Assembly: GCA_007115975.1 (NCBI GenBank)
Contig: SKJJ01000096.1
Coordinates: 1 to 64,000, forward strand
Length of the DNA: 64,000 nt
Direction of reading: 5' to 3'
Origin: Chitinispirillum sp.
GTDB taxonomy: Bacteria; Fibrobacterota; Chitinivibrionia; Chitinivibrionales; Chitinispirillaceae
Part shown: positions 38,850 to 58,055 of the stretch, piece after piece
Layout of the letters: each line of letters opens with the position of its first letter
Position numbering within the stretch: the first letter of the stretch is position 1
Notes under the pieces: generated by a model
The model's database searches: none
What the model was told of the DNA's origin: nothing
The model's input: only the letters and a program-made list of their open reading frames with translations
Translations under genes and position numbers: made by a program

Positions 38850-38922
38850 CAGGCCTGGAGGGACTTGAACCCCCAACCAACGGTTTTGGAGACCGTTACT
38901 CTACCAATTGAGCTACAGACCT
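38850..38922 (-). tRNA. tRNA-Trp (anticodon CCA)
   Basis: 73-base cloverleaf. The acceptor AGGTCTG pairs with CAGGCCT; the discriminator is G; the anticodon stem ACGGT/ACCGT encloses CTCCAAA, giving CCA; the T-loop is GGTTCAAGTCC. The CCA tail is not encoded. It lies between rpmG and secE, a common place for trnW. Confidence 0.96.
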
Positions 38923-38994
38923 ATTCTCCGGAAAGAATTTTTCCAAATCTGTTCTGTGTTTCTGTAAACAAACCCTTTCCCAAGACAAAAAGAA

Positions 38995-39147
38995 CTAACG
39001 CGTTTCCTTATGAGCAGTTCTTTTACGTTCAAAAGGGCAATACTTAACAAATTCAACACGACCAGAATGCTTACGTTTATTTTTGGTCATCTGATAGTTT
39101 CTTTGTTTACAAGAAGTACATTCCAGTATTATTCTATCTCGAGGCAT
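38995..39147 (-). CDS. rpmG: 50S ribosomal protein L33, with one zinc ligand replaced
   Basis: A 50-residue protein starting MPRDRIILECTSCKQRNY and ending RKRTAHKETR. It keeps Cys10, Cys13 and Cys37 of the zinc-ribbon form, but the fourth ligand (position 40 in KYCPFERK) is Glu instead of Cys. This makes it intermediate between zinc-binding and zinc-free L33. Encoded between tuf and tRNA-Trp, its usual neighbourhood next to secE. Confidence 0.95.
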   Translation of the reverse strand: MPRDRIILECTSCKQRNYQMTKNKRKHSGRVEFVKYCPFERKRTAHKETR

Positions 39148-39193
39148 ACTTTACCATTTCCCTTATATTTTAAGCATTTATGGCAAAAAGTGC

Positions 39194-40399
39194 CTATTCA
39201 ATGATATCAGTAACAACACCAGCGCCAACAGTTCTGCCACCCTCACGGATTGCAAATCTGAGTTCTTTTTCCATAGCAACAGGTGCAATAAGCTCAACTT
39301 CAATCTGAGCATTATCACCGGGCATAATCATCTCAATACCATCAGCAAGTTTTAGTGAACCGGTAACATCTGTTGTACGGAAATAAAACTGAGGACGATA
39401 GCCGCTGAAGAAAGGTGTATGGCGACCGCCCTCTTCTTTAGAAAGTACAACAACCTCAGCCTTAAATTTCTTGTGCGGTGTTATGGATCCGGGTTTTGCC
39501 AAAACCATACCACGTTCAATATCGTTTTTGTCTACACCGCGAAGAAGTGTACCGATATTATCACCAGCTTCAGCTTTATCGAGAAGCTTACGGAACATTT
39601 CGACACCGGTAACTACTGATTTTCTTGAGTCTCTGAGCCCGATAAGTTCAACCTCATCACCAACCTTAACCGCACCACGTTCTACACGGCCAGTAGCAAC
39701 GGTTCCACGTCCGGTGATTGAGAACACATCCTCAACCGACATGAGAAAAGGTTTGTCAACATCACGTTCAGGAGTAGGAATGTATGAGTCGATAGCAGCG
39801 AGAAGGTCGACAATACACTTAGCTTTTTCATCATCTTCAGGATTGGTAAGAGCACCGACAGCACTTCCTGGAATGATAGGAATATCATCACCAGGGAATT
39901 CGTATTTGCTCAATAACTCACGCACCTCAAGCTCAACCAGCTCAAGCAATTCAGGGTCATCAACCACATCAACCTTATTAAGGAATACAACGATATAGGG
40001 CACACCAACCTGACGAGCAAGAAGGATATGTTCTCTTGTCTGAGGCATAGGACCATCAGCAGCACTAACAACAAGTATAGCACCGTCCATCTGAGCCGCA
40101 CCAGTGATCATATTCTTCACATAATCAGCATGTCCCGGACAGTCAACGTGAGCGTAATGGCGGTTTTCTGACTCATATTCGACATGTGAAGTAGCGATAG
40201 TCAAAATCTTTGTATCGTCACGGCGTCCCTGTGATTCAGAAGCCTTGGCGACCTCATCATAAGAAATGGCTGTTGCAAGACCTTTTGCAGCCATAACACG
40301 AGTAATAGCAGCTGTCAGCGTCGTCTTACCATGATCCACATGACCGATCGTACCGACATTGACATGGGGTTTGGAGCGATCAAATTTTTCCTTTGACAT
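39194..40399 (-). CDS. tuf: Elongation factor Tu
   Basis: 401-residue GTPase that delivers aminoacyl-tRNA. G1 is GHVDHGKTT, switch II is [13 protein letters not shown]4 is [16 protein letters not shown] starts domain II and [12 protein letters not shown] lies in domain III. It is the only tuf in the window, placed after four tRNA genes as E. coli tufB is, and not after fusA. Confidence 0.98.
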
Positions 40400-40487
40400 G
40401 GAAACCTCTCAGTACTGATGGATGAATGAAAAATTACATTTTTAAATTGTTAATTAACCTGATACCAAACAATCAACTTCTGGTAAA

Positions 40488-40561
<74 letters not shown>

Positions 40562-40565
40562 AAAG

Positions 40566-40638
40566 AGCGGGCAATGAGATTCGAACTCACAACAACCACC
40601 TTGGAAGGGTGGAGCTCTACCAGTTGAGCTATGCCCGC
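40566..40638 (-). tRNA. tRNA-Gly (anticodon TCC)
   Basis: Acceptor GCGGGCA pairs with TGCCCGC; anticodon stem CCACC/GGTGG encloses CTTCCAA, giving TCC; T-loop AGTTCGAATCT. Only four bases separate it from the following tRNA-Thr. Confidence 0.96.
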
Positions 40639-40657
40639 CGGCATAAAAAAAGTATAA

Positions 40658-40740
40658 TGGGCAGGGGTGGTTTCGAACCACCGTAGGCGTAAGCCAATGG
40701 ATTTACAGTCCATCCCCTTTAACCACTCGGGCACCTACCC
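40658..40740 (-). tRNA. tRNA-Tyr (anticodon GTA)
   Basis: 83 bases with the long variable arm expected of a class II tRNA. Acceptor GGGTAGG pairs with CCTGCCC; anticodon loop CTGTAAA gives GTA; discriminator A; T-loop GGTTCGAAACC. Confidence 0.96.
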
Positions 40741-40750
40741 TTATATCTGG

Positions 40751-40823
40751 AGCCGATGGAGGGATTCAAACCCCCGACCATTCGATTACAAGTCGAACGC
40801 TCTATCAACTGAGCTACATCGGC
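40751..40823 (-). tRNA. tRNA-Thr (anticodon TGT)
   Basis: Acceptor GCCGATG pairs with CATCGGC; anticodon stem TTCGA/TCGAA encloses CTTGTAA, giving TGT; T-loop GGTTTGAATCC. First gene of the tRNA-tuf transcript. Confidence 0.96.
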
Positions 40824-47786: not shown

Positions 47787-48221
47787 CTAAATACTGAAAC
47801 ATTCTGCCACCTTTTGGTTTTCACTGTCAAGGAGGTCCTGAAGCGTTTTGGTGCTCAGTACAGATTGCCACGCTTGTGACATCTCTTTCCACAAAAGCCG
47901 GGTAGTACAATTGGTGTGTTTTTCACAACAATCAGGAGCGCTGACACAATCCACCAAATCGAGAGATCCTTCAAGTGCCTCTACAATTTCCAGAAGAATG
48001 ATATCAGCGGGTTTTTTTGCCAACAGATAGCCACCTTTAGCACCTCTGGTAGTTTTGATGATTCCGTTTGTTTTTAGGATTATAAGGATGTTTTCAAGAT
48101 ATGAATCACTTATCCCCTCACTTTTGGCGATATCTTTCCTTTTACAGGAGCCAGATTCGTGCATCTGTGCAATCTGGATAACAGCACGCATACCGTAGCG
48201 GCATTTTGTAGAGAGTTTCAT
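47787..48221 (-). CDS. Rrf2-family transcriptional regulator
   Basis: 144 residues. Winged-helix DNA-binding domain at the N-terminus (MKLSTKCRYGMRAVIQIAQM, IAKSEGISDSYLENIL, TTRGAKGGYLLAKKPADI). A cysteine cluster follows (DCVSAPDCCEKHTNC, C-x5-CC-x5-C), close to the Fe-S cluster site of IscR. It probably senses iron-sulfur or redox state. No isc/suf genes are nearby; the divergent PII-antiporter operon starts about 450 bases away and is one possible target. Confidence 0.92.
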   Translation of the reverse strand: MKLSTKCRYGMRAVIQIAQMHESGSCKRKDIAKSEGISDSYLENILIILKTNGIIKTTRGAKGGYLLAKKPADIILLEIVEALEGSLDLVDCVSAPDCCEKHTNCTTRLLWKEMSQAWQSVLSTKTLQDLLDSENQKVAECFSI

Positions 48222-48672: not shown

Positions 48673-49014
48673 ATGAAACTGCTGATTTTCGTGTTGAACA
48701 AAGAAGAACTGCTTGATGATGTAATGGCTGCGTTTATCGAGGCAGATGTCCCTGGTGCCACAATAATAGATTCAGAGGGCATGGGCCATTTTCTCACCTA
48801 CGAAGTCCCCCTGTTTGCCGATTTCAAAGATTTCATGAAAGGCAACAAGCCTTACAATAAGACCATAATCTCGGTCATAAAAAATGAGGAGACGATTCCT
48901 GTTGTCGTTAAGCTTTTAAACCAGGTATGTGGCGATCTGTCCAAACCCGGAACGGGCATACTATTTACAATCCCTGTGGATTTTTGTCAGGGGTTATTTG
49001 AAGAGGAGAATTAA
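48673..49014 (+). CDS. PII-like signalling protein
   Basis: 113 residues with the ferredoxin-like PII layout: beta strand MKLLIFVLNKEELLDDVMAAF, a short T-loop region around 35-60, and a C-terminal strand PGTGILFTIPVDFCQGL that corresponds to the GDGKIFV strand of GlnB/GlnK. The tyrosine that is uridylylated in GlnB and the classical T-loop sequence are absent, so it is a divergent PII-like protein, not GlnB. First gene of the antiporter operon, three bases before the EIIA start, which suggests a regulatory role in ion transport. A GTG one codon upstream is an alternative start. Confidence 0.75.
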   Translation: MKLLIFVLNKEELLDDVMAAFIEADVPGATIIDSEGMGHFLTYEVPLFADFKDFMKGNKPYNKTIISVIKNEETIPVVVKLLNQVCGDLSKPGTGILFTIPVDFCQGLFEEEN

Positions 49015-49017
49015 CCA

Positions 49018-49479
49018 GTGGATAAGATATCAGAACTTCTTGAATTAAATTGTATATCACTGGATTTGCAATCAAAAAAGAGACATGAGGTGATACCAGA
49101 ACTTGTAGAAATACTGGCTTCGGCAGGGAAAATCGATAACCGTGATTTTTTCGTACAAGAGCTTCTGGAACGGGAAAAACTTTCATCAACAGGCATAGGC
49201 AACGGCATTGCCATTCCCCATAAGCTGACCAGCCATATTTCCTCAACAGTTTTGGCGCTGGGCAAGACAACAAGAGGGATCAATTTTGGTTCACTTGACA
49301 AAAAACCGGTACATCTGTTCTTTTTGATCTTGGGCCCCGAAGGGAAACACACCGAGCATCTTAAACTGTTAAGTAAGCTGTCGCGTTTACTTCATGACCG
49401 GCAGTTTTGTGATCAACTGTTCCGGGCACAGAGTCCCTCTGAGGTTATAGCCCTTATCAAAGCAAAGGAAGAGTATTAA
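49018..49479 (+). CDS. PTS EIIA domain protein (PtsN/fructose EIIA-like)
   Basis: 153 residues, a stand-alone EIIA(Ntr/Fru) domain. The phosphorylatable His68 lies in GNGIAIPHKL, preceded by the STGIGNG loop typical of the family. It starts with GTG behind GAGGAGAAT. No EIIB, EIIC, HPr or EI gene is near, so it is more likely regulatory (as PtsN is for potassium transport in E. coli) than a sugar-transport component. Followed two bases later by mrpE. Confidence 0.88.
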   Translation: MDKISELLELNCISLDLQSKKRHEVIPELVEILASAGKIDNRDFFVQELLEREKLSSTGIGNGIAIPHKLTSHISSTVLALGKTTRGINFGSLDKKPVHLFFLILGPEGKHTEHLKLLSKLSRLLHDRQFCDQLFRAQSPSEVIALIKAKEEY

Positions 49480-49481
49480 GA

Positions 49482-49994
49482 ATGAATGCTTCGACTAAGT
49501 GGAAGCTGGTCCGGATACTATTTACAGCAGTATATCTTTTTGCAGGATGGTTACTTTTTACGGCATCACTCGATCTTTCATCAGTACTTTTGGGCATCGC
49601 GCTCTCCTCGATTGTATCACTTGTCATGTTTGATCTGTTCATTCAGGAATCAGAAGTAGCGCGGCGATCTCTTGTGCCCCATCTTCATCTGTTTGTGCTC
49701 TTTATCCTGGTTGTCCTGTTTAAGATGTATGTGGCTAGTTTCAAAGTGGCCTGGAATGTGATACGGGGCAGGATAAACCCAAGAATTGTTCATTTCCGTA
49801 CGCGCCTTCGAACGGATATGTCTCGGGTGGTACTTACCAATGCCATAACACTTACTCCAGGAACAATCACCTTGAACCTTGATGATGACCATCTCATAGT
49901 GCACTGGCTTGATGCAAAGACCACGCATTCAAAATATGCCGGTAAGCTTATAAAGGGGTCGTTTGAAAAGTTGCTCGGAAGGATCTGGGTGTGA
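49482..49994 (+). CDS. mnhE: Na+/H+ antiporter subunit E (MrpE/MnhE; MbhA-like)
   Basis: 170-residue membrane protein. Three hydrophobic segments fill the first half (about 10-80). The second half contains the conserved ITLTPGTITLNLDDDHLIVH block of the MnhE family. It overlaps mnhF by four bases. First antiporter gene of the operon, as MbhA is in Pyrococcus. Confidence 0.9.
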   Translation: MNASTKWKLVRILFTAVYLFAGWLLFTASLDLSSVLLGIALSSIVSLVMFDLFIQESEVARRSLVPHLHLFVLFILVVLFKMYVASFKVAWNVIRGRINPRIVHFRTRLRTDMSRVVLTNAITLTPGTITLNLDDDHLIVHWLDAKTTHSKYAGKLIKGSFEKLLGRIWV

Positions 49995-50260
49995 ACCTGC
50001 TCTCTTTTGATCTGGTAGTATACATTCTTCTAGGCACTGTTGTGTTCAGTATGATAAGGGTTGTGATAGGTCCAACAGTTGTGGACCGTCTTATTGGGCT
50101 TAATCTTATATCAGCCCAGGTGCTGGCAATTTTTGTGCTGGTAGCCGTAAAGGAGCACCTCACGGTATATCTCGACGTTGCACTTGTTTATGACATTTTC
50201 GGTTTTATAGGTATACTGGCAATAACCAAATATTATAAAACTATTAAGGAGAGTAACTGA
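49991..50260 (+). CDS. mnhF: Na+/H+ antiporter subunit F (MrpF/MnhF; MbhB-like)
   Basis: 89 residues, three transmembrane helices. The loop MIRVVIGPTVVDRLIGLNLIS and the later YLDVALVYDIFGFIGILAITKY are the MnhF signatures. It begins with GTG overlapping mnhE and its TGA abuts the mnhG start. Confidence 0.92.
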   Translation: MNLLSFDLVVYILLGTVVFSMIRVVIGPTVVDRLIGLNLISAQVLAIFVLVAVKEHLTVYLDVALVYDIFGFIGILAITKYYKTIKESN

Positions 50261-50593
50261 ATGATGGATTGGTTTGTTCAGCTTTTTCTCTTATTGGGGA
50301 TTGTGTTTGCGGTTATGGGTAACGTCGGCGTTCTGGTTTTCCCTGACGTTTACACCAGACTTCAGGCGTCCTCAACCTGCAGCACAACTTCTGTAATCTC
50401 ATTTTTCATAGCAGCGATGATAGAATCCGGCATATCAGCCATGAGTGGAAAGATCATGGTTCTTCTGTTGTTTTTCTTTATTTCGAATCCTGTCAGCACG
50501 CACATTATTGCCCGGTATGCATGGAATATGGGTATAATGCCCTGGCGCAAGCAGATGGTACAAATAACAAGTGAGACAGACCGATGCTTATGA
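50261..50593 (+). CDS. mnhG: Na+/H+ antiporter subunit G (MrpG/MnhG; MbhC-like)
   Basis: 110 residues, three helices. GNVGVLVFPDVYTRLQASS and the LFFFISNPVSTHIIARYAW segment are typical of PhaG/MnhG. It overlaps the next gene by ten bases. Confidence 0.92.
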   Translation: MMDWFVQLFLLLGIVFAVMGNVGVLVFPDVYTRLQASSTCSTTSVISFFIAAMIESGISAMSGKIMVLLLFFFISNPVSTHIIARYAWNMGIMPWRKQMVQITSETDRCL

Positions 50594-50823
50594 CCGTTGT
50601 ACTTCTGATGCTGCATATTATTACTGCATTTCTTGCCCTTCAAACCCGCAATCTTGTAAGCATGGTGATTTTTATGGCGGTATTCAGTCTCCTGAGCTCA
50701 CTGCTCTTTTTTCATCTTCATGCACCCGATGTAGCTCTGACCGAAGCTGCAGTCGGGGCGGGTATTTCTACTTTTATCTACGTGTGGATAATCCTTAAGA
50801 CAGGCCGGAGAGATGAGACATGA
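50584..50823 (+). CDS. DUF4040 subunit (MrpA C-terminal/MbhD-like)
   Basis: 79 residues with three hydrophobic segments. The block FFHLHAPDVALTEAAVGAG is the DUF4040 signature, found in the C-terminal part of MrpA and in MbhD of membrane-bound hydrogenases, where it resembles NuoJ. Here it is a separate gene. It overlaps the next gene by four bases. Confidence 0.88.
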   Translation: MLMTVVLLMLHIITAFLALQTRNLVSMVIFMAVFSLLSSLLFFHLHAPDVALTEAAVGAGISTFIYVWIILKTGRRDET

Positions 50824-51086
50824 GGGTTTTGCAAATTAAACAGTTACTGTACTTGTTTATCATACTTGCTGCGGGTGTATTGCTGATCCAGGTTATCGAT
50901 GCACAACAGGCAGCTCAAACGCTTGCAAGAGAGTACTTGCTGATTTTCGGAACGAGCGAAACCGGAGCGATCAACCTTGTTTCTTCGATCTATCTTGGCT
51001 ACAGGACATTTGATACTCTTGGTGAGACGATAGTGCTATTTCTTGGAGTGTCCGGAACAATCCTTTATATGAGGACCAAAGATTGA
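50820..51086 (+). CDS. MbhE-like subunit (MrpA extreme C-terminal domain)
   Basis: 88 residues, two hydrophobic segments. The soluble middle contains ETGAINLVSSIYLGYRTFDTLGETIVLFLGV, written here as the consecutive motifs ETGAINLVSSIYLGYR and FDTLGETIVLF; this is the MbhE/MrpA-tail signature. Coupled by four-base overlaps to both neighbours. Confidence 0.85.
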   Translation: MRVLQIKQLLYLFIILAAGVLLIQVIDAQQAAQTLAREYLLIFGTSETGAINLVSSIYLGYRTFDTLGETIVLFLGVSGTILYMRTKD

Positions 51087-51499
51087 GGAAAACAGATATT
51101 CTTGAAGTAACCTCACGTAAACTTGCTCCTTTCATTTTGATGTTTGGTTTTTATGTGGTTTCATACGGACATCTCTCTCCCGGCGGTGGGTTTCAGGGTG
51201 GGGTTGTTCTGGCTTCGGCGATTGTTCTTCTTTTCCTGTGTCATGATACAGAATTGATAAAAAGATATATACCAGTAAGGATCTTTATCATAATCGAAGC
51301 GTCCGCATTCATGCTCTTTCTCATCATGGGGATGCTTGGTCTTTTTCTGGAGGGGCACTTCATGGCTATATTTTTACCGGTCGTTCGGGATGGGGAAATC
51401 CCTGCGGCCAGTTACATTTTAATTATGAATTTCATAATCGGCCTTAAGGTTGGAGCAGGGATCAGCCTTATTTGCTACTACTTGTTCAGGAAAGATTAA
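51083..51499 (+). CDS. mnhB: Na+/H+ antiporter subunit B (MrpB/MnhB; MbhF-like)
   Basis: 138 residues, four helices. The loop GHLSPGGGFQGGVVLASAIV is the MnhB hallmark. The start is TTG at 51083, inside the stop of the preceding gene (TTGA overlap). The stop abuts mnhC with no gap. Confidence 0.92.
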   Translation: MRKTDILEVTSRKLAPFILMFGFYVVSYGHLSPGGGFQGGVVLASAIVLLFLCHDTELIKRYIPVRIFIIIEASAFMLFLIMGMLGLFLEGHFMAIFLPVVRDGEIPAASYILIMNFIIGLKVGAGISLICYYLFRKD

Positions 51500-51844
51500 A
51501 TGACGATCACGGCATTGATTTTAACTCTTCTGCTGCTTGGTTTCTGGGGTATTCTCAGTAAAAGACACCTTGTAAAGAAAATAGTGGCGCTTAACATTAT
51601 AAACAGTGCAGTCATAATTCTTTTTATCAACATGGGATCCCGATCTGGTGAAACAGCTCCGATACTTGTCAAGGAGATGATGGATATTGTAGACCCTCTC
51701 CCTCAGGCACTTATGCTCACAGCAATAGTTATCGGGGTAAGTATTACCGCATTTGGGGTATGCCTCATATACCTTATTTTTCAGAAGTACGGCACTCTGG
51801 ACATAGACAAAATTGAACGGGAACATATTGGTGAACACGAATAA
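51500..51844 (+). CDS. mnhC: Na+/H+ antiporter subunit C (MrpC/MnhC, NuoK-like; MbhG-like)
   Basis: 114 residues, three helices. The segment DPLPQALMLTAIVIGVSITA is the NuoK/MnhC signature. It ends in a hydrophilic tail (IEREHIGEHE) whose coding sequence overlaps the start of mnhD. Confidence 0.92.
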   Translation: MTITALILTLLLLGFWGILSKRHLVKKIVALNIINSAVIILFINMGSRSGETAPILVKEMMDIVDPLPQALMLTAIVIGVSITAFGVCLIYLIFQKYGTLDIDKIEREHIGEHE

Positions 51845-53477
51845 TCTGATAATCCTTCTTGTGGTGATTCCACTTTTGGGGAGTGCAGTCTGTTCAGTGG
51901 GTAAGATTACCTCAAAACTTATCATATGCAAAATAAGCATTGCTGCGGCAATGCTTTGTAATCTATATGTTCTGATTTTAACCTATCCACTGATAAGCGG
52001 CGGCAATGAGCTAACGTTTATAATCGGTGGTTGGGAACCGGTGGCAGGAATTGCTTTTGGCTTTGATATGCTAGGCTGGATAGTGTCGCTTCTTATTCTT
52101 GTAATCACGTCTATGAGTATGTTGTTTGCCTTTTCAGAAGACCACTATTCACCGATGTTCTATTTTACCATTTTGGTTTTGCTTGCAGGAATGAAAGGCA
52201 TTCTTTTAACGCGGGATCTTTTTAATCTTTTTGTCTTTTTTGAAATACTTGCAATCACCTCTTACATACTTATAGCCTACCTTCAGAAGAGCCATTCTGT
52301 TCTGGCAAGCTTTAAATATCTTATCGTAGGTTCAGCGGCGATGCTTATTTATCTGCTTGGTGTCTTTATAATTTATCAATCTACAGGAAGCCTTTCGTTT
52401 TCAGCGATAGAACAGATGAGACTTAGTGGGGAGTACGTCAAGTTGCATTTTGCAATTGTGGCGATTTTTACCGGCATAGGAGTCCGCTGCGCATTTATCC
52501 CTTTCCATACATGGCTTCCGGAAGCACACGCCTATGCACCGCATCCTGTTTCGGCGATACTCAGTGGTGTTATGATCAAAGCAGCGTTTATTTCGCTGTG
52601 GAGAATACTCGCCACGGGAGGTTTGAGTGACCTCAATTCCATTTTTTTGATTATCGGTGTTGTGACAGCTTTTCTAGGAGCATTTTGGGCACTTTGCGAA
52701 AATGATGCAAAGAAAATACTGGCATTTTCATCGGTTTCACAGATAGGGTATATCGTTTCAGCATTCAGTATTGCAACAACCCTTTCACGAAGCGCTTCAC
52801 TGTATCATATCATCAGCCATGCCTTTTCAAAGAGTCTTCTTTTCCTATCGGTTGGCTGTGTGGTCTGGATGACCGGTGAACGAAACATCAGAAAACTTGG
52901 CGGTTTCTGGAAGAGTAACCCTTTTTTAACGATACTTTTTCTCACTGCAGCCCTATCCATTACAGGTGTTCCTCCCTTTGGGGGTTTTGTGAGCAAGAAA
53001 ATGATCCTTGAATCATCTCTTGACATACCCTTTGTTTATAGTCTTCTGTTTGCCACCAGCATTATCACTTTTGGGGCATACATAAAAATCTCATCAATAT
53101 TTTTCGGACCTTTTCGCAATAGAATAGAAGAGTGTTCAAAGGCCAGAAAGATTCCGGTTTCAGCGTATTTACCACTAATGCTTCTGAGTGCATTGTGTAT
53201 CGGCACCGGTTTGTTTCCCGATTTCTGGACAGGATTTTTTCACTCAGGTATCAATGCGGGACAACCGATGATAGCATCAGGAGTGTATAGTATCAAGGGG
53301 TTTTTAGAATTGGTACCGGTAATCATTGGTGGCATACTGCTCTATTCAGGCACCACTCAAAAAACCGGCATACTTATAGCAAAGACGGTCAGAGCGACCA
53401 ACGCCACTCTCAGTGATGCAGTATTTTTTGTTCTCACAGGATTTGTTGCCATACTTTTGATTTTATGGTACAATTAA
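51831..53477 (+). CDS. mnhD: Na+/H+ antiporter subunit D (MrpD/MnhD, NuoN/M-like; MbhH-like)
   Basis: About 548 residues with some 14 predicted helices; the proton- or sodium-translocating core. The conserved glutamate lies in FNLFVFFEILAITSYIL, and the HTWLPEAHAYAPHPVSAILS block followed by GVMIKAAF carries the helix-8 lysine. ENDAKKILAFSSVSQIGYI and GVPPFGGFVSKKMI are further signatures. I chose the GTG at 51831; a TTG at 51813 would add six residues within mnhC. It is the only NuoL/M/N-type subunit in the operon: no mrpA N-terminal part is present. Confidence 0.92.
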   Translation: MNTNNLIILLVVIPLLGSAVCSVGKITSKLIICKISIAAAMLCNLYVLILTYPLISGGNELTFIIGGWEPVAGIAFGFDMLGWIVSLLILVITSMSMLFAFSEDHYSPMFYFTILVLLAGMKGILLTRDLFNLFVFFEILAITSYILIAYLQKSHSVLASFKYLIVGSAAMLIYLLGVFIIYQSTGSLSFSAIEQMRLSGEYVKLHFAIVAIFTGIGVRCAFIPFHTWLPEAHAYAPHPVSAILSGVMIKAAFISLWRILATGGLSDLNSIFLIIGVVTAFLGAFWALCENDAKKILAFSSVSQIGYIVSAFSIATTLSRSASLYHIISHAFSKSLLFLSVGCVVWMTGERNIRKLGGFWKSNPFLTILFLTAALSITGVPPFGGFVSKKMILESSLDIPFVYSLLFATSIITFGAYIKISSIFFGPFRNRIEECSKARKIPVSAYLPLMLLSALCIGTGLFPDFWTGFFHSGINAGQPMIASGVYSIKGFLELVPVIIGGILLYSGTTQKTGILIAKTVRATNATLSDAVFFVLTGFVAILLILWYN

Positions 53478-53647: not shown

Positions 53648-54859
53648 ATGAACAAAAAAACTATAAGTCTGTACGATTTTTATGACATTATTCAAAGGAC
53701 CGTTTTACCACGGAAAAGGTTAACCAGAGACATTTTTAACGACGGCACCACCAACCGCCAGGAAGACATTTCTGTTCTCAGGGAAGCCTACGCTCAACTA
53801 GGTTGTATTCCTGAGCGGGGGGGGAAGAAACTTCTCTCAATCGGATCAAGGATCATTTCAACAGATTTAGGTTACGAGATCGAGGAGTTAAAGCGAGATG
53901 TCATGTATCTTGAGCAGGGTGAAGATGCACTTAACAAATACCTTAAAGAGTTCCACCCTGCTTTTGACATTGAGGTTGAAAAAGGAGTTGCATTTTTAGA
54001 CGATTTATCTATCCGGGTTTTTATATCCGACAGAGACGGCACCGTTAACAATTACTGCGGGCGATATCTTTCCTCACTACAATCAATCTACAACTCAGTT
54101 TTTCTCAGCAGGTTTTCAACCCGTGTAGAGGAGAGTGTACTATTGACAGCTGCCCCTCTTGATGATATTGGTATAGTTGATATCAGTATAAACCCTCCCG
54201 GGTTATTTACTTATGCCGGTTCAAAGGGACGTGAATATATCGACAAAAAGGGGGAAAAGTTTTCATTTCCGATATCTGCAGAAAAGCAGGACGCACTGGA
54301 CCGGTTGAACCAAGAGCTTTCAGCTCTTGTTAACAATAAAGAGTACGAGATATACACCTACATTGGTTCGGGCCTGCAGTTCAAATTCGGTCAGACCACA
54401 CTTGCCAGACAAGATATCTATTCATCCATACCTGCGGACAAGTCAGAGGCATTACTTGAAACCGTGCGGGATTTAATTGACAGAATTGATCCACAGGGAG
54501 CAACGTTCAAGATTGAGGATACCGGCAAAGACATAGAGATTATTTTGACCGTCGAAGGCGGTAGTGCAGATGCCAAGGATTATGACAAGGGTGATGGTGT
54601 CAGGTATCTTGACCAGCAAATCCCATTGCATTTGAAAAGAGGTACTCCTCTGATATGCGGGGACACCCAATCAGATCTTTCGATGGTGAAGGCCTCAATG
54701 GAACAGAATCCACAAACAAGAGTAATTTTTGTAACCCAAGATATACATCTCATCGACCAGCTTAAGGAAATCTGTTCAAGGAGTCTCACCGTCAGTTCAC
54801 CGGATGTACTTATTACCATTCTTGACAAATTCAGCAAAGGACGATGTAGTTATGTTTGA
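53648..54859 (+). CDS. HAD-superfamily phosphatase, trehalose-6-phosphate-phosphatase-like
   Basis: 403 residues. The first about 120 have no recognised domain. HAD motif I is ISDRDGTV (Asp128, Asp130), motif II Thr167 in LLTAAP, motif III Lys314 in YDKGDGVRYL (the spacing and sequence seen in trehalose-6-phosphate phosphatases), motif IV Asp339/Asp343 in CGDTQSD. All catalytic positions are kept. Its stop overlaps the start of the fused phosphoglucomutase/GH65 gene by eight bases, so both are probably made together. Substrate is inferred: trehalose 6-phosphate is likely but unproven. Confidence 0.78.
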   Translation: MNKKTISLYDFYDIIQRTVLPRKRLTRDIFNDGTTNRQEDISVLREAYAQLGCIPERGGKKLLSIGSRIISTDLGYEIEELKRDVMYLEQGEDALNKYLKEFHPAFDIEVEKGVAFLDDLSIRVFISDRDGTVNNYCGRYLSSLQSIYNSVFLSRFSTRVEESVLLTAAPLDDIGIVDISINPPGLFTYAGSKGREYIDKKGEKFSFPISAEKQDALDRLNQELSALVNNKEYEIYTYIGSGLQFKFGQTTLARQDIYSSIPADKSEALLETVRDLIDRIDPQGATFKIEDTGKDIEIILTVEGGSADAKDYDKGDGVRYLDQQIPLHLKRGTPLICGDTQSDLSMVKASMEQNPQTRVIFVTQDIHLIDQLKEICSRSLTVSSPDVLITILDKFSKGRCSYV

Positions 54860-57800
54860 ACTAAAGGGAGCAATATTTGACCTTGATGGAGTAGTCACGA
54901 AAACAGCCAGAGTTCATTCCGTTGCCTGGAAGAAGATTTTTGATGACCTTTTGAAAAAACGCTCAGAAGAGCACTGTACTGAATTTATTCCCTTTACTAG
55001 GGATGAAGATTACCTTGTCTATGTTGATGGCAAGCCCAGACTTCAGGGAATCTGTAGTTTTCTTGAATCCCGCGAGATTGAATTGCCCATGGGGTCACCC
55101 GACGACGGTCCAGAAATCCTAACCGCACACGGCCTGGCCAACAAAAAGAACTACATATTCCGTGAAATTATCGCACAGCACGGGGCAGATATATTTGAAA
55201 GTACGGTAAAGTTGGTCAAGCAGATGAGAGAAGAGGGTATAAGGACCGGAGTTGCTTCTTCAAGCAAAAATTGCAGGTATATTCTTGAGACGACCAAACT
55301 CATTGAGCTTTTTGAAACAGTGGTAGACGGCAATGAGTCAACAGAACTTGGGCTCAAGGGCAAACCGGAACCTGACATTTTTATCAAAGCCGCAGAAAAC
55401 ATGGGTTTGACACCCAAAGAGTGTGTAATGGTTGAGGATGCAATCTCAGGTGTACAGTCGGGGAAAAATGGCAATTTTGCACTTGTTCTTGGTGTCAGCA
55501 GAGCTGGCGATAAGGAGCACCTTCTTGCAAACGGAGCGGATATTTGTGTGGATGATCTCAGTGAGATCAGCCTTGAAGAGATAAAGGAGTGGTTTAAAAC
55601 GGGGATAGCTCAGGATAGCTGGAAAATTACCTACAAGGGGGCAGATCCGGAAAATGAGAATCTCAGGGAGACATTGACAACTACGGGGAACGGCTATTTT
55701 GGTACACGAGGCGCATTTGCAGGAACCAAAGCAGTCCGGGATACCCACTACCCCGGGACCTATATTGCAGGTGTGTACAATAATATTGCTACAGAAGTTC
55801 ACGGAAAGCCAATTTACAACAATGATTTCGTTAATTGCCCTAACTGGCTTCTTGTCGAATTAAAAATTGGTGACGGTGAATTCTTTAACCCCCTCACAAC
55901 TGACATCATCTCCTGCAGCCATGAACTTGACATGAAAAAAGCCGTTGTTGAGCGGTCGGTGACGTTTAAAGATTCAGAAGAAAGAGTAACAACAATAGAG
56001 ACTTGGAATTTTGCATCCATGGCTAATCCTCATATAGGTGCGCTCAGATACAGAATAACTCCTCAGAATTACAGTTGTTCAATAACCCTACGTTCCTCAA
56101 TAGATGGTTCTGTTATAAATGATGGAGTCCCGAGATACAGAAGCCTGGAGTCCAAACATCTTAAAACTGTCGTCAATGAAATCCAACAAAACACAGTCCT
56201 TCTGCACACAAAAACAACTGCATCGGATATAGATATTTACATAAGAGCGAAGCATGTCTTCACCGGTGAATGTGAGATGCAAAAGGGTATCGTGGAGGCA
56301 GATGAAATAATCGGTGAAGATTTGACTTTTATCGCCAGGGAGGGCAAAGAGTACACACTGGATAAGTTGGTAACCATCTATACCTCTTTGGATCAGGACA
56401 CAGAGTCCGCTGAAAAGGACTCTATTGAATTAATTAAGCAGATGAAAGATTTCGAACAGTTGAAGGCAGAACATCTCCAAAAATGGAGTAATTTATGGGA
56501 AAAGGGAGATGTCATTATTGAAGATGACCGACTCAGCCAAAAAACTCTTCGCCTCCATATCTATCACCTTTTTGTAACCGCCTCGGAGCACAACAAATTC
56601 ATAGATGCCGGAATGCCTGCACGGGGATTATCCGGAGAAGCCTACAGGGGACACGTTTTCTGGGATGAGCTCTATATTTTCCCGTTCTATAACCAGCACT
56701 CCCCGGAGATCACCAAGGCGCTTCTGATGTATCGATACAGGCGTCTTGACCAGGCGCGTGACAATGCTGTTGAATACGGTTTTAAAGGAGCGATGTATCC
56801 ATGGCAAACAGCAGATACCGGGCTTGAAGAGACTCAGATAGTCCACTATAATCCGGTTTCAGGAAACTGGGATCCGGATTTAAGTAGAAATCAACGGCAT
56901 GTATCCCTTGCTATTGCCTACAATATCTGGGAGTATTTTTATTGCACTTATGACATGGATTTTCTTCACAACTACGGTGCAGAGATGATGATTGAAATAA
57001 CCAGAATGTGGGCAAGCATGGCTAAGCTTGACAAAAAGACCGGTCGCTATTCTATAAGCGGAGTTATGGGTCCTGATGAATTTCATGAATGTTACCCCTG
57101 TACAGAAGAAGCCGGAGTAAAGGATAATGCATACACAAATATTATGGTAAGCTGGTTGATACACAAAACAATCGAGATGGCTGAACACTTACCGAAAAGC
57201 GCACTAGAAGATCTTGAAAAAAAGATCGGGTTTACAGTTTGCGAAACAAAGGAGTGGGATCACCTGATCCATAAACTCAATGTGAGCATCACCGAAGATG
57301 GAATTCTGGAACAATTTGAGGGATATATGGATCTCAGGGAGTTAGACTGGGATGCATACAGAGAGCAATACGGTGATATACACCGTATGGACAGACTTCT
57401 GAAATCGGAAAATGACTCTCCTGACAATTACAAGTTAGCTAAACAAGCCGACGTTCTGATGCTTTTCTATCTCCTTTCACCCGGGCAGGTTTGCAAAATC
57501 CTTTCACTTATGGGGTACACCATCCCTGATGAGCTTTCGTTTATGGAGAAGAACTATGAGTACTATGTAAAGAGAACGAGTCATGGTTCAACATTAAGCC
57601 ATGTGGTGCATTCTGCAGTTCTTAAATATCTCGATACTCACCAAGAAGATAAGTGGAGCTGGTTTTATTCTGCTTTAAAGAGTGATATAGGTGATACTCA
57701 GGGAGGAACAACCAGAGAAGGTATACACACCGGAGTGATGGGTGGCACAGTAGATATGGTGATCAAAAGTTTTTCAGGAATAAGCAGATACAAAGATCAC

Positions 57801-58055
57801 CTAGAGGTCTCTCCTCAACTACCTGAGCAGTGGAACCGAATAGCATTCAAAATTCTTCACAAGGGCTACTGGTTACATTTCTCAATCAGTAAAACTACTA
57901 TCATTGTAACTCAACTTGCCGGTGATTCTGAACCTTTCGGGATTGTTGTTGAGGGAGAATATTATACTCTTAAAGATAGTGAGTCACTGGAAATCACCTA
58001 CTTTACCAGCGATATCACTGAGAGAGCAGACACCAGCACGGTGTCTCAGAGCTGA
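54852..58055 (+). CDS. Fusion of beta-phosphoglucomutase (HAD) and GH65 disaccharide phosphorylase
   Basis: 1067 residues from the ATG at 54852, which follows AAAGGA and gives MFELKGAIFDLDGVV. Residues 1-250 are a beta-phosphoglucomutase-type HAD domain: Asp10 and Asp12 (FDLDG), Lys171 (GKPEPD), Glu195-Asp196 (VEDAISG). From about 260 the protein is a GH65 inverting phosphorylase: TTTGNGYFGTRGAF, GHVFWDELY, and the general-acid Glu743 in GVMGPDEFHE, then VKDNAYTN. GH65 enzymes split trehalose, maltose or kojibiose with phosphate into glucose and beta-glucose 1-phosphate, which the mutase half turns into glucose 6-phosphate, so one chain can channel both steps. The exact disaccharide cannot be read from sequence; the neighbour suggests trehalose. 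Confidence 0.92.
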   Translation: MFELKGAIFDLDGVVTKTARVHSVAWKKIFDDLLKKRSEEHCTEFIPFTRDEDYLVYVDGKPRLQGICSFLESREIELPMGSPDDGPEILTAHGLANKKNYIFREIIAQHGADIFESTVKLVKQMREEGIRTGVASSSKNCRYILETTKLIELFETVVDGNESTELGLKGKPEPDIFIKAAENMGLTPKECVMVEDAISGVQSGKNGNFALVLGVSRAGDKEHLLANGADICVDDLSEISLEEIKEWFKTGIAQDSWKITYKGADPENENLRETLTTTGNGYFGTRGAFAGTKAVRDTHYPGTYIAGVYNNIATEVHGKPIYNNDFVNCPNWLLVELKIGDGEFFNPLTTDIISCSHELDMKKAVVERSVTFKDSEERVTTIETWNFASMANPHIGALRYRITPQNYSCSITLRSSIDGSVINDGVPRYRSLESKHLKTVVNEIQQNTVLLHTKTTASDIDIYIRAKHVFTGECEMQKGIVEADEIIGEDLTFIAREGKEYTLDKLVTIYTSLDQDTESAEKDSIELIKQMKDFEQLKAEHLQKWSNLWEKGDVIIEDDRLSQKTLRLHIYHLFVTASEHNKFIDAGMPARGLSGEAYRGHVFWDELYIFPFYNQHSPEITKALLMYRYRRLDQARDNAVEYGFKGAMYPWQTADTGLEETQIVHYNPVSGNWDPDLSRNQRHVSLAIAYNIWEYFYCTYDMDFLHNYGAEMMIEITRMWASMAKLDKKTGRYSISGVMGPDEFHECYPCTEEAGVKDNAYTNIMVSWLIHKTIEMAEHLPKSALEDLEKKIGFTVCETKEWDHLIHKLNVSITEDGILEQFEGYMDLRELDWDAYREQYGDIHRMDRLLKSENDSPDNYKLAKQADVLMLFYLLSPGQVCKILSLMGYTIPDELSFMEKNYEYYVKRTSHGSTLSHVVHSAVLKYLDTHQEDKWSWFYSALKSDIGDTQGGTTREGIHTGVMGGTVDMVIKSFSGISRYKDHLEVSPQLPEQWNRIAFKILHKGYWLHFSISKTTIIVTQLAGDSEPFGIVVEGEYYTLKDSESLEITYFTSDITERADTSTVSQS

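Follow-up and report, generated by a model that had tools for sequence, protein, structure and literature searches.

A PII-like protein and an EIIA protein encoded with a stand-alone Mrp antiporter: a candidate two-input regulator of cation/proton exchange

Introduction

How sodium/proton exchange is coupled to the metabolic state of a cell is still largely an open question. Proteins of the PII fold commonly bind transporters such as AmtB and SbtA, and in the GlnK–AmtB and SbtB–SbtA systems the small PII-fold protein is encoded together with its membrane transporter. A PII gene also occurs in some YbcC–NuoL (DabAB-type) operons, i.e. together with a membrane subunit that is a homologue of NuoL/MrpA (PMC5700660). 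In E. coli, unphosphorylated PtsN, a protein of the EIIA type, binds and inhibits the K+/H+ antiporter YcgO (PMC11808508). Finally, P. furiosus has a stand-alone group 3 Mrp complex (PF1147-53, mrpEFGBB'CD) with neither MrpA nor a redox module. Deletion work has connected it with growth in acid and with Na+ as the coupling ion, and what drives Mrp in the absence of MrpA is described there as unknown (PMC8415708). Here we analyse a 64,000-nucleotide stretch of DNA from Chitinispirillum sp. (contig SKJJ01000096.1; 'the window'), in which ten plus-strand open reading frames at 48673-53477 encode a PII-like protein, an EIIA protein and the antiporter subunits MnhE, F, G, MbhD, MbhE, B, C and D, in this order. 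On balance, we favour the view that this operon encodes a stand-alone group 3 Mrp Na+/H+ antiporter together with its own two-input regulator, consisting of the EIIA and the PII-like protein, which would gate it by direct binding.

With the P. furiosus operon, the locus shares the set and order of subunits (E, F, G, the MbhD/E region, B, C, D), a single antiporter subunit and the lack of both MrpA and a redox module; as described, however, that operon contains neither an EIIA nor a PII gene (PMC8415708). In the window, which is bacterial DNA, MbhD and MbhE are encoded separately. The order and split of the eight membrane subunits are also those of the Mbh and Mbs complexes of Thermococcales, but the operon is without hydrogenase or sulfane reductase genes and has the sensor pair instead. 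The likeness to PtsN–YcgO is twofold: the phospho-acceptor histidine is conserved and, as we propose for the window, a protein of the EIIA type acts on an antiporter that exchanges monovalent cations for protons. In contrast, YcgO consists of a single chain of the CPA1 type that has a tail in the cytoplasm, and no PII-like partner has been described for it (PMC11808508); the EIIA protein of the window scores below the cut-off for PtsN equivalogs. The PII proteins of the GlnK–AmtB, SbtB–SbtA and YbcC–NuoL systems, in turn, are without an EIIA partner, and their canonical ligand residues and T-loop sequence are not common to the subfamily found here. Our search of open-licence papers found no description of an EIIA–PII pair or fusion with antiporters. 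Thus, an earlier note on this DNA, which had proposed an undescribed system, needs to be divided: an MrpA-less Mrp is not new, since it has already been described in P. furiosus without a redox partner (PMC8415708), and it is the sensor pair beside the antiporter that is the new part, with each half having a known parallel.

Results

The earlier note had also called for a search for co-occurrence of the sensor and antiporter genes. Searching GTDB genomes with the PII-like protein as the query retrieved 75 relatives with 49–75% identity, from Spirochaetota, Aerophobetes, Fermentibacterota, Calditrichota and others. EIIA directly follows PII in 70 of these loci and MnhE comes next in 69, with the order PII-EIIA-E-F-G-MbhD-MbhE-B-C-D being kept in nearly all loci on a long enough contig, and the two sensor genes are thus conserved beside the antiporter in related as well as unrelated genomes. 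Chance gene order can be rejected, since the same order recurs in about 70 other genomes. Clustering of the flanking genes revealed no conserved partner at the cassette flanks; because these vary between loci, the unit consists of the ten genes. Within this unit there is some variation. MbhE and B are fused in many spirochaetes, and the D gene is present in one copy in 51 of 55 resolved cassettes and in two copies in the other four. In one genome (G025) the pair lies inside the Mrp operon, between MbhD and B, and in one Mrp cassette (L060) PII and EIIA are fused, with PII first. A 755-residue open frame in G239, considered as a triple fusion, was rejected as a reading artefact of GC-rich DNA; here EIIA follows separately.

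The pair also occurs in a second setting. Sixty places encoding PII-like proteins were found in a sample of 393 Spirochaetota genomes, and 46 of them adjoin an antiporter, either as Mrp cassettes (24) or in the neighbourhood of a PF00999 antiporter (22, of which 20 with EIIA). The other 14 comprise six EIIA–PII pairs alone, three places that adjoin or resemble DUF1538 operons (one of them tested against Pfam) and five that are unsorted. Together with five neighbourhoods in the window's own order and one in Tritonobacter (L086), there are 28 PF00999-type neighbourhoods, with EIIA present in 26 and PII occurring without EIIA in two. EIIA and PII are fused, with EIIA first, in 18 loci, and the gene order is EIIA, antiporter, PII in six. 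Eight of the nine neighbouring antiporters tested match PF00999 (87–242 bits), while the ninth (L092) has no Pfam match. Mrp and PF00999 antiporters are different protein families, and the common feature therefore is their job; the recurrence of the pair beside unrelated PF00999 antiporters supports a role in antiport control.

Loci with EIIA–PII fusions or separate genes beside PF00999 antiporters include L089-L093 and L164-L176 as well as further ones in Spirochaetota and in the window's own order. Three loci (L180, L181, L182) carry an EIIA and PII-like pair without an antiporter, L180 and L181 beside what by eye is probably an rpsF–ssb cluster. At L191:2633-4796, as also in L193 and L190, the gene for a DUF1538 membrane protein is followed by one whose product carries a P-II domain at its C-terminus (48 bits), making this a further uncharacterised membrane family that has a PII partner, and in L094 an orphan PII-like gene adjoins a GH65-like gene.

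Other Mrp/Mbh clusters do not have the pair. Neither PII nor EIIA was found with any of 26 such clusters, i.e. six of the window's own phylum and 20 sampled from Spirochaetota. The clusters of the own phylum (L199-L203, L205), all with recognisable Mrp genes, lie beside NuoH-like or NiFe-hydrogenase-type genes, as named by similarity and by eye. Of the 20 spirochaetal MnhE clusters outside the cassette, 16 have NuoH, a hydrogenase or more than one antiporter-like subunit; a further three are truncated at the ends of contigs and one is ambiguous. The pair thus goes specifically with the stand-alone form, which mostly has a single D, and there it would seem to stand in place of the energy-input module.

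For the antiporter itself, all eight group 3 Mrp parts (MrpE, F, G, B, C, D and the MbhD and MbhE domains) were matched in Pfam, with MbhE being borderline. The entire assembly (3.89 Mb, 97.5% complete) contains one Proton_antipo_M protein, namely the D subunit, and one MbhD protein, which means that there is no MrpA, NuoL or complex I elsewhere in it. The same cassette is carried by Breznakiella homolactica, whose complete chromosome likewise encodes a single Proton_antipo_M protein, and a hidden MrpA, NuoL or complex I can be rejected for both genomes. That MrpA is missing, as the earlier note had read from the operon, thus holds also when a completing partner is sought elsewhere in these two genomes. 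The solved structure nearest to the D subunit is that of MbhH from the Pyrococcus hydrogenase (best PDB match 6cfw_H, E 2.7e-50). In a residue alignment its proton-path residues Glu138, Lys250 and Lys389 are kept, and at the position where the aligned MbhH and MrpD structures have a lysine in TM7, the window has Arg219, with arginine being found in 54 of 59 cassettes overall. By its predicted parts, the antiporter is therefore classified as a stand-alone group 3 Mrp with the MbhA-H set, a single antiporter-like subunit and no energy-input module, and its coupling ion would be Na+.

The PII-like protein (48673..49014, plus strand; 113 residues) reaches 26.8 bits with Pfam P-II against a cut-off of 25, a weak match by itself, and its profile matches known PII sequences weakly (best E 0.009). 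Its AlphaFold2 model (mean predicted local distance difference test score 86.7) gave only PII proteins among the 50 best PDB matches listed, with template modelling scores of about 0.5-0.6, and the protein is thus predicted to have a PII fold (PII superfamily, ferredoxin-like). The canonical GlnB/GlnK signature for ATP and 2-oxoglutarate (T-loop Gln39, B-loop GDGK) is absent: in the profile alignment with 2eg1, Phe stands at Gln39 of the T-loop and GTG at the DGK of the ligand loop. Since the canonical ligand-site residues are replaced, sensing of ATP and 2-oxoglutarate should not be assumed, and the label 'nitrogen sensor', which the protein had initially been given, lacks support. On the other hand, the loop region PGTGI is also conserved in this subfamily, which suggests a kept ligand site. 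Because SbtB has been recovered as a binder of cyclic di-AMP (c-di-AMP), this nucleotide is one possible ligand by analogy (PMC10117731). A c-di-AMP synthase domain is present in 11 of 12 cassette genomes and was not found in G170, a distribution that neither supports nor rules out c-di-AMP as an obligatory ligand. BB0017 of Borrelia was rejected as a relative, as its PII-like domain belongs to another family (DUF2179; PMC6516651).

The T-loop region of the PII-like protein, EVPLFADFKDFMKGNKPYNKTI, is near-invariant in Mrp cassettes and was modelled by AlphaFold2 as two helices with moderate confidence. If T is permitted at the first K and H at the second, its segment MKGNKPYNKTI matches exactly in 92 of the 99 Mrp-linked copies counted, a total that includes some loci twice; not one of the 26 copies next to PF00999 antiporters matches exactly. 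In two orphan pairs (L156, L194), which group with the Mrp copies, the segment has diverged. This pattern fits a loop shaped by its partner, with shared descent explaining part of it.

The EIIA protein (49018..49479, plus strand; 153 residues) matches PTS_EIIA_2 with 133 bits and carries a putative phospho-acceptor, His68, in the motif GIAIPH. It scores 111.5 with TIGR00848 (fruA), above the cut-off of 103.5, and 90.3 with the PtsN equivalog model TIGR01419, below the cut-off of 138.7; its PDB match is PtsN (2a0j, E 5e-19). By these curated cut-offs it is assigned to the fructose/Ntr superfamily and not to the PtsN equivalogs. The phospho-acceptor histidine is kept in all Mrp-linked EIIA proteins examined and, wherever the alignment covers the position, also in those beside PF00999 antiporters. 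HPr is present in all 12 cassette genomes tested. The genome of the window has an unusually large set of such components, with two HPr matches and seven matches to the N-terminal domain of phosphoenolpyruvate (PEP) utilisers, i.e. enzyme I (EI), the latter on contigs C215, C216, C56, C194, C146 and C220.

In a tree of the PII-like proteins, the Mrp-linked copies (except that of G025) fall into one part and the PF00999-linked copies lie outside it or in a neighbouring branch, so that at least three changes of partner are needed; support in this tree is low because the protein is short. The copy of the window groups with those of a Guaymas spirochaete and of G004, a genome of the same family as that of the window. 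Since G004 also keeps the same upstream genes (PurM, helicase, MalQ, Rrf2), the cassette is not a binning error. It is absent from G005, a genome of the same genus.

The eight membrane subunits follow the two sensor genes on the plus strand: MnhE/MbhA (49482..49994; MNHE PF01899, 120 bits), MnhF/MbhB (49991..50260; MrpF PF04066, 49 bits), MnhG/MbhC (50261..50593; PF03334, 77 bits), MbhD (50584..50823; PF13244, 69 bits) and MbhE (50820..51086), the latter two each corresponding to part of the MrpA C-terminal region, then MnhB/MbhF (51083..51499; PF04039, 93 bits), MnhC/MbhG (51500..51844; Oxidored_q2 PF00420, 82 bits) and the antiporter subunit MnhD/MbhH (51831..53477; Proton_antipo_M PF00361, 221 bits). 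MbhE, with 25.3 bits for PF20501, is slightly below the cut-off of 27 and is named also by its position and conservation. Junctions range from a 14-base overlap (overlaps being 4-14 bases) to a 3-base gap, so that the ten genes look like one translationally coupled operon. Both the tight coupling of ten plus-strand genes and the gene identities given by the first reading are confirmed by these coordinates and Pfam matches. Equally, no hydrogenase follows the operon. Downstream, at 53648-58055, lie instead the genes for a trehalose-6-phosphate phosphatase and a HAD–GH65 fusion of the sugar phosphorylase type, which overlap by 56 bases and are likely to form a trehalose operon. Upstream, at 47787-48221, there is a divergent gene for an Rrf2-type regulator, which is kept in G004 (L087) and is not a conserved neighbour in other cassettes. 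An upstream RNA switch was rejected, as there is no Rfam match near the operon, the only matches being five tRNAs at 38850-40823, and a promoter scan of the operon found sites no more frequent than in shuffled sequences.

Discussion

How might the two proteins regulate the antiporter? The relay of the phosphotransferase system (PTS), consisting of EI and HPr, would phosphorylate His68 of EIIA when PEP is plentiful, while the PII-like protein, presumably a trimer, would report a second signal via a ligand in a pocket unlike that of canonical PII. Both would act jointly on the antiporter through direct binding, with unphosphorylated EIIA and one ligand state of the PII-like protein keeping it in a low-activity state, from which phosphorylation of EIIA or a change in the PII ligand would release it. 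Membrane ion exchange could thereby track the energy and carbon state of the cell. That a complex forms, in which direction control operates and that the PII-like protein has a ligand is what we infer from conservation and precedent.

Several observations weigh against this proposal. In the YcgO precedent, the antiporter is of the CPA1 type and has a cytoplasmic CorC/RCK region, which is absent from Mrp. The link is not absolute, since EIIA is missing between PII and E in two cassettes (L014, L015) and no antiporter is in view for a few pairs (L156, L194, L180-L182). With the canonical ligand residues absent from the PII-like protein, ligand sensing is an assumption. Moreover, the genomes are mostly metagenome assemblies and the neighbour counts are not phylogenetically independent.

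The orphan pairs, as well as the established fact that in other bacteria both PtsN and PII proteins act on many targets, would also suit a scenario in which the pair sets the amount of the antiporter or controls other transporters, with EIIA and the PII-like protein acting in trans on regulators or enzymes and sharing the operon for co-production under pH or sodium stress. We regard this as unlikely: the operon is without a conserved DNA-binding gene, and the pair follows two unrelated antiporter families, staying beside the antiporter through fusions and changes in order. An almost invariant T-loop region, as expected for a fixed protein contact, and the replaced ligand residues would be in line with the two proteins having lost sensing and serving the antiporter in its structure or assembly. 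However, the active-site histidine of EIIA is kept throughout, HPr occurs in every cassette genome tested, and the conserved PGTGI loop suggests that a ligand site has been kept, which leaves such a role only a small chance of being correct.

Since most Mbh-type modules, including those of the window's own phylum, are part of redox complexes, one might also suppose that this Mrp module belongs, as the membrane part, to a larger redox complex that has its soluble part encoded elsewhere and that includes both sensors. This seems very improbable in view of the single Proton_antipo_M protein in both the window's assembly and the complete Breznakiella genome, and of the absence of a conserved redox gene at the cassette flanks, with hydrogenase families not having been searched genome-wide; in addition, there is a known case of a stand-alone Mrp that has no redox partner (PMC8415708). 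Our preferred reading thus is that the pair gates the antiporter directly.

A wider proposition, on which we are evenly divided, is that EIIA and this PII-like subfamily constitute a portable gate with two inputs that serves cation/proton antiporters at large. It would have been joined separately to the multi-subunit Mrp complexes and to PF00999 antiporters of a single chain, would combine PTS phosphorylation with a second metabolite as its inputs and, for Mrp, would sit at the place that the energy-input or redox module has in other complexes. A conserved sensor pair in an antiporter operon offers a testable handle, with two signals, two unrelated antiporter families and natural fusions, and hosts of the module such as Sphaerochaeta and Breznakiella are culturable. 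If the proposal is true, antiporters would join the targets of PII-fold proteins, the principle of PtsN–YcgO would reach far beyond the enterobacteria, and a two-input gate would be defined in which a phosphorelay protein is combined with a trimer that binds a ligand. The recurrence of the pair suggests a portable control unit for cell pH and sodium.

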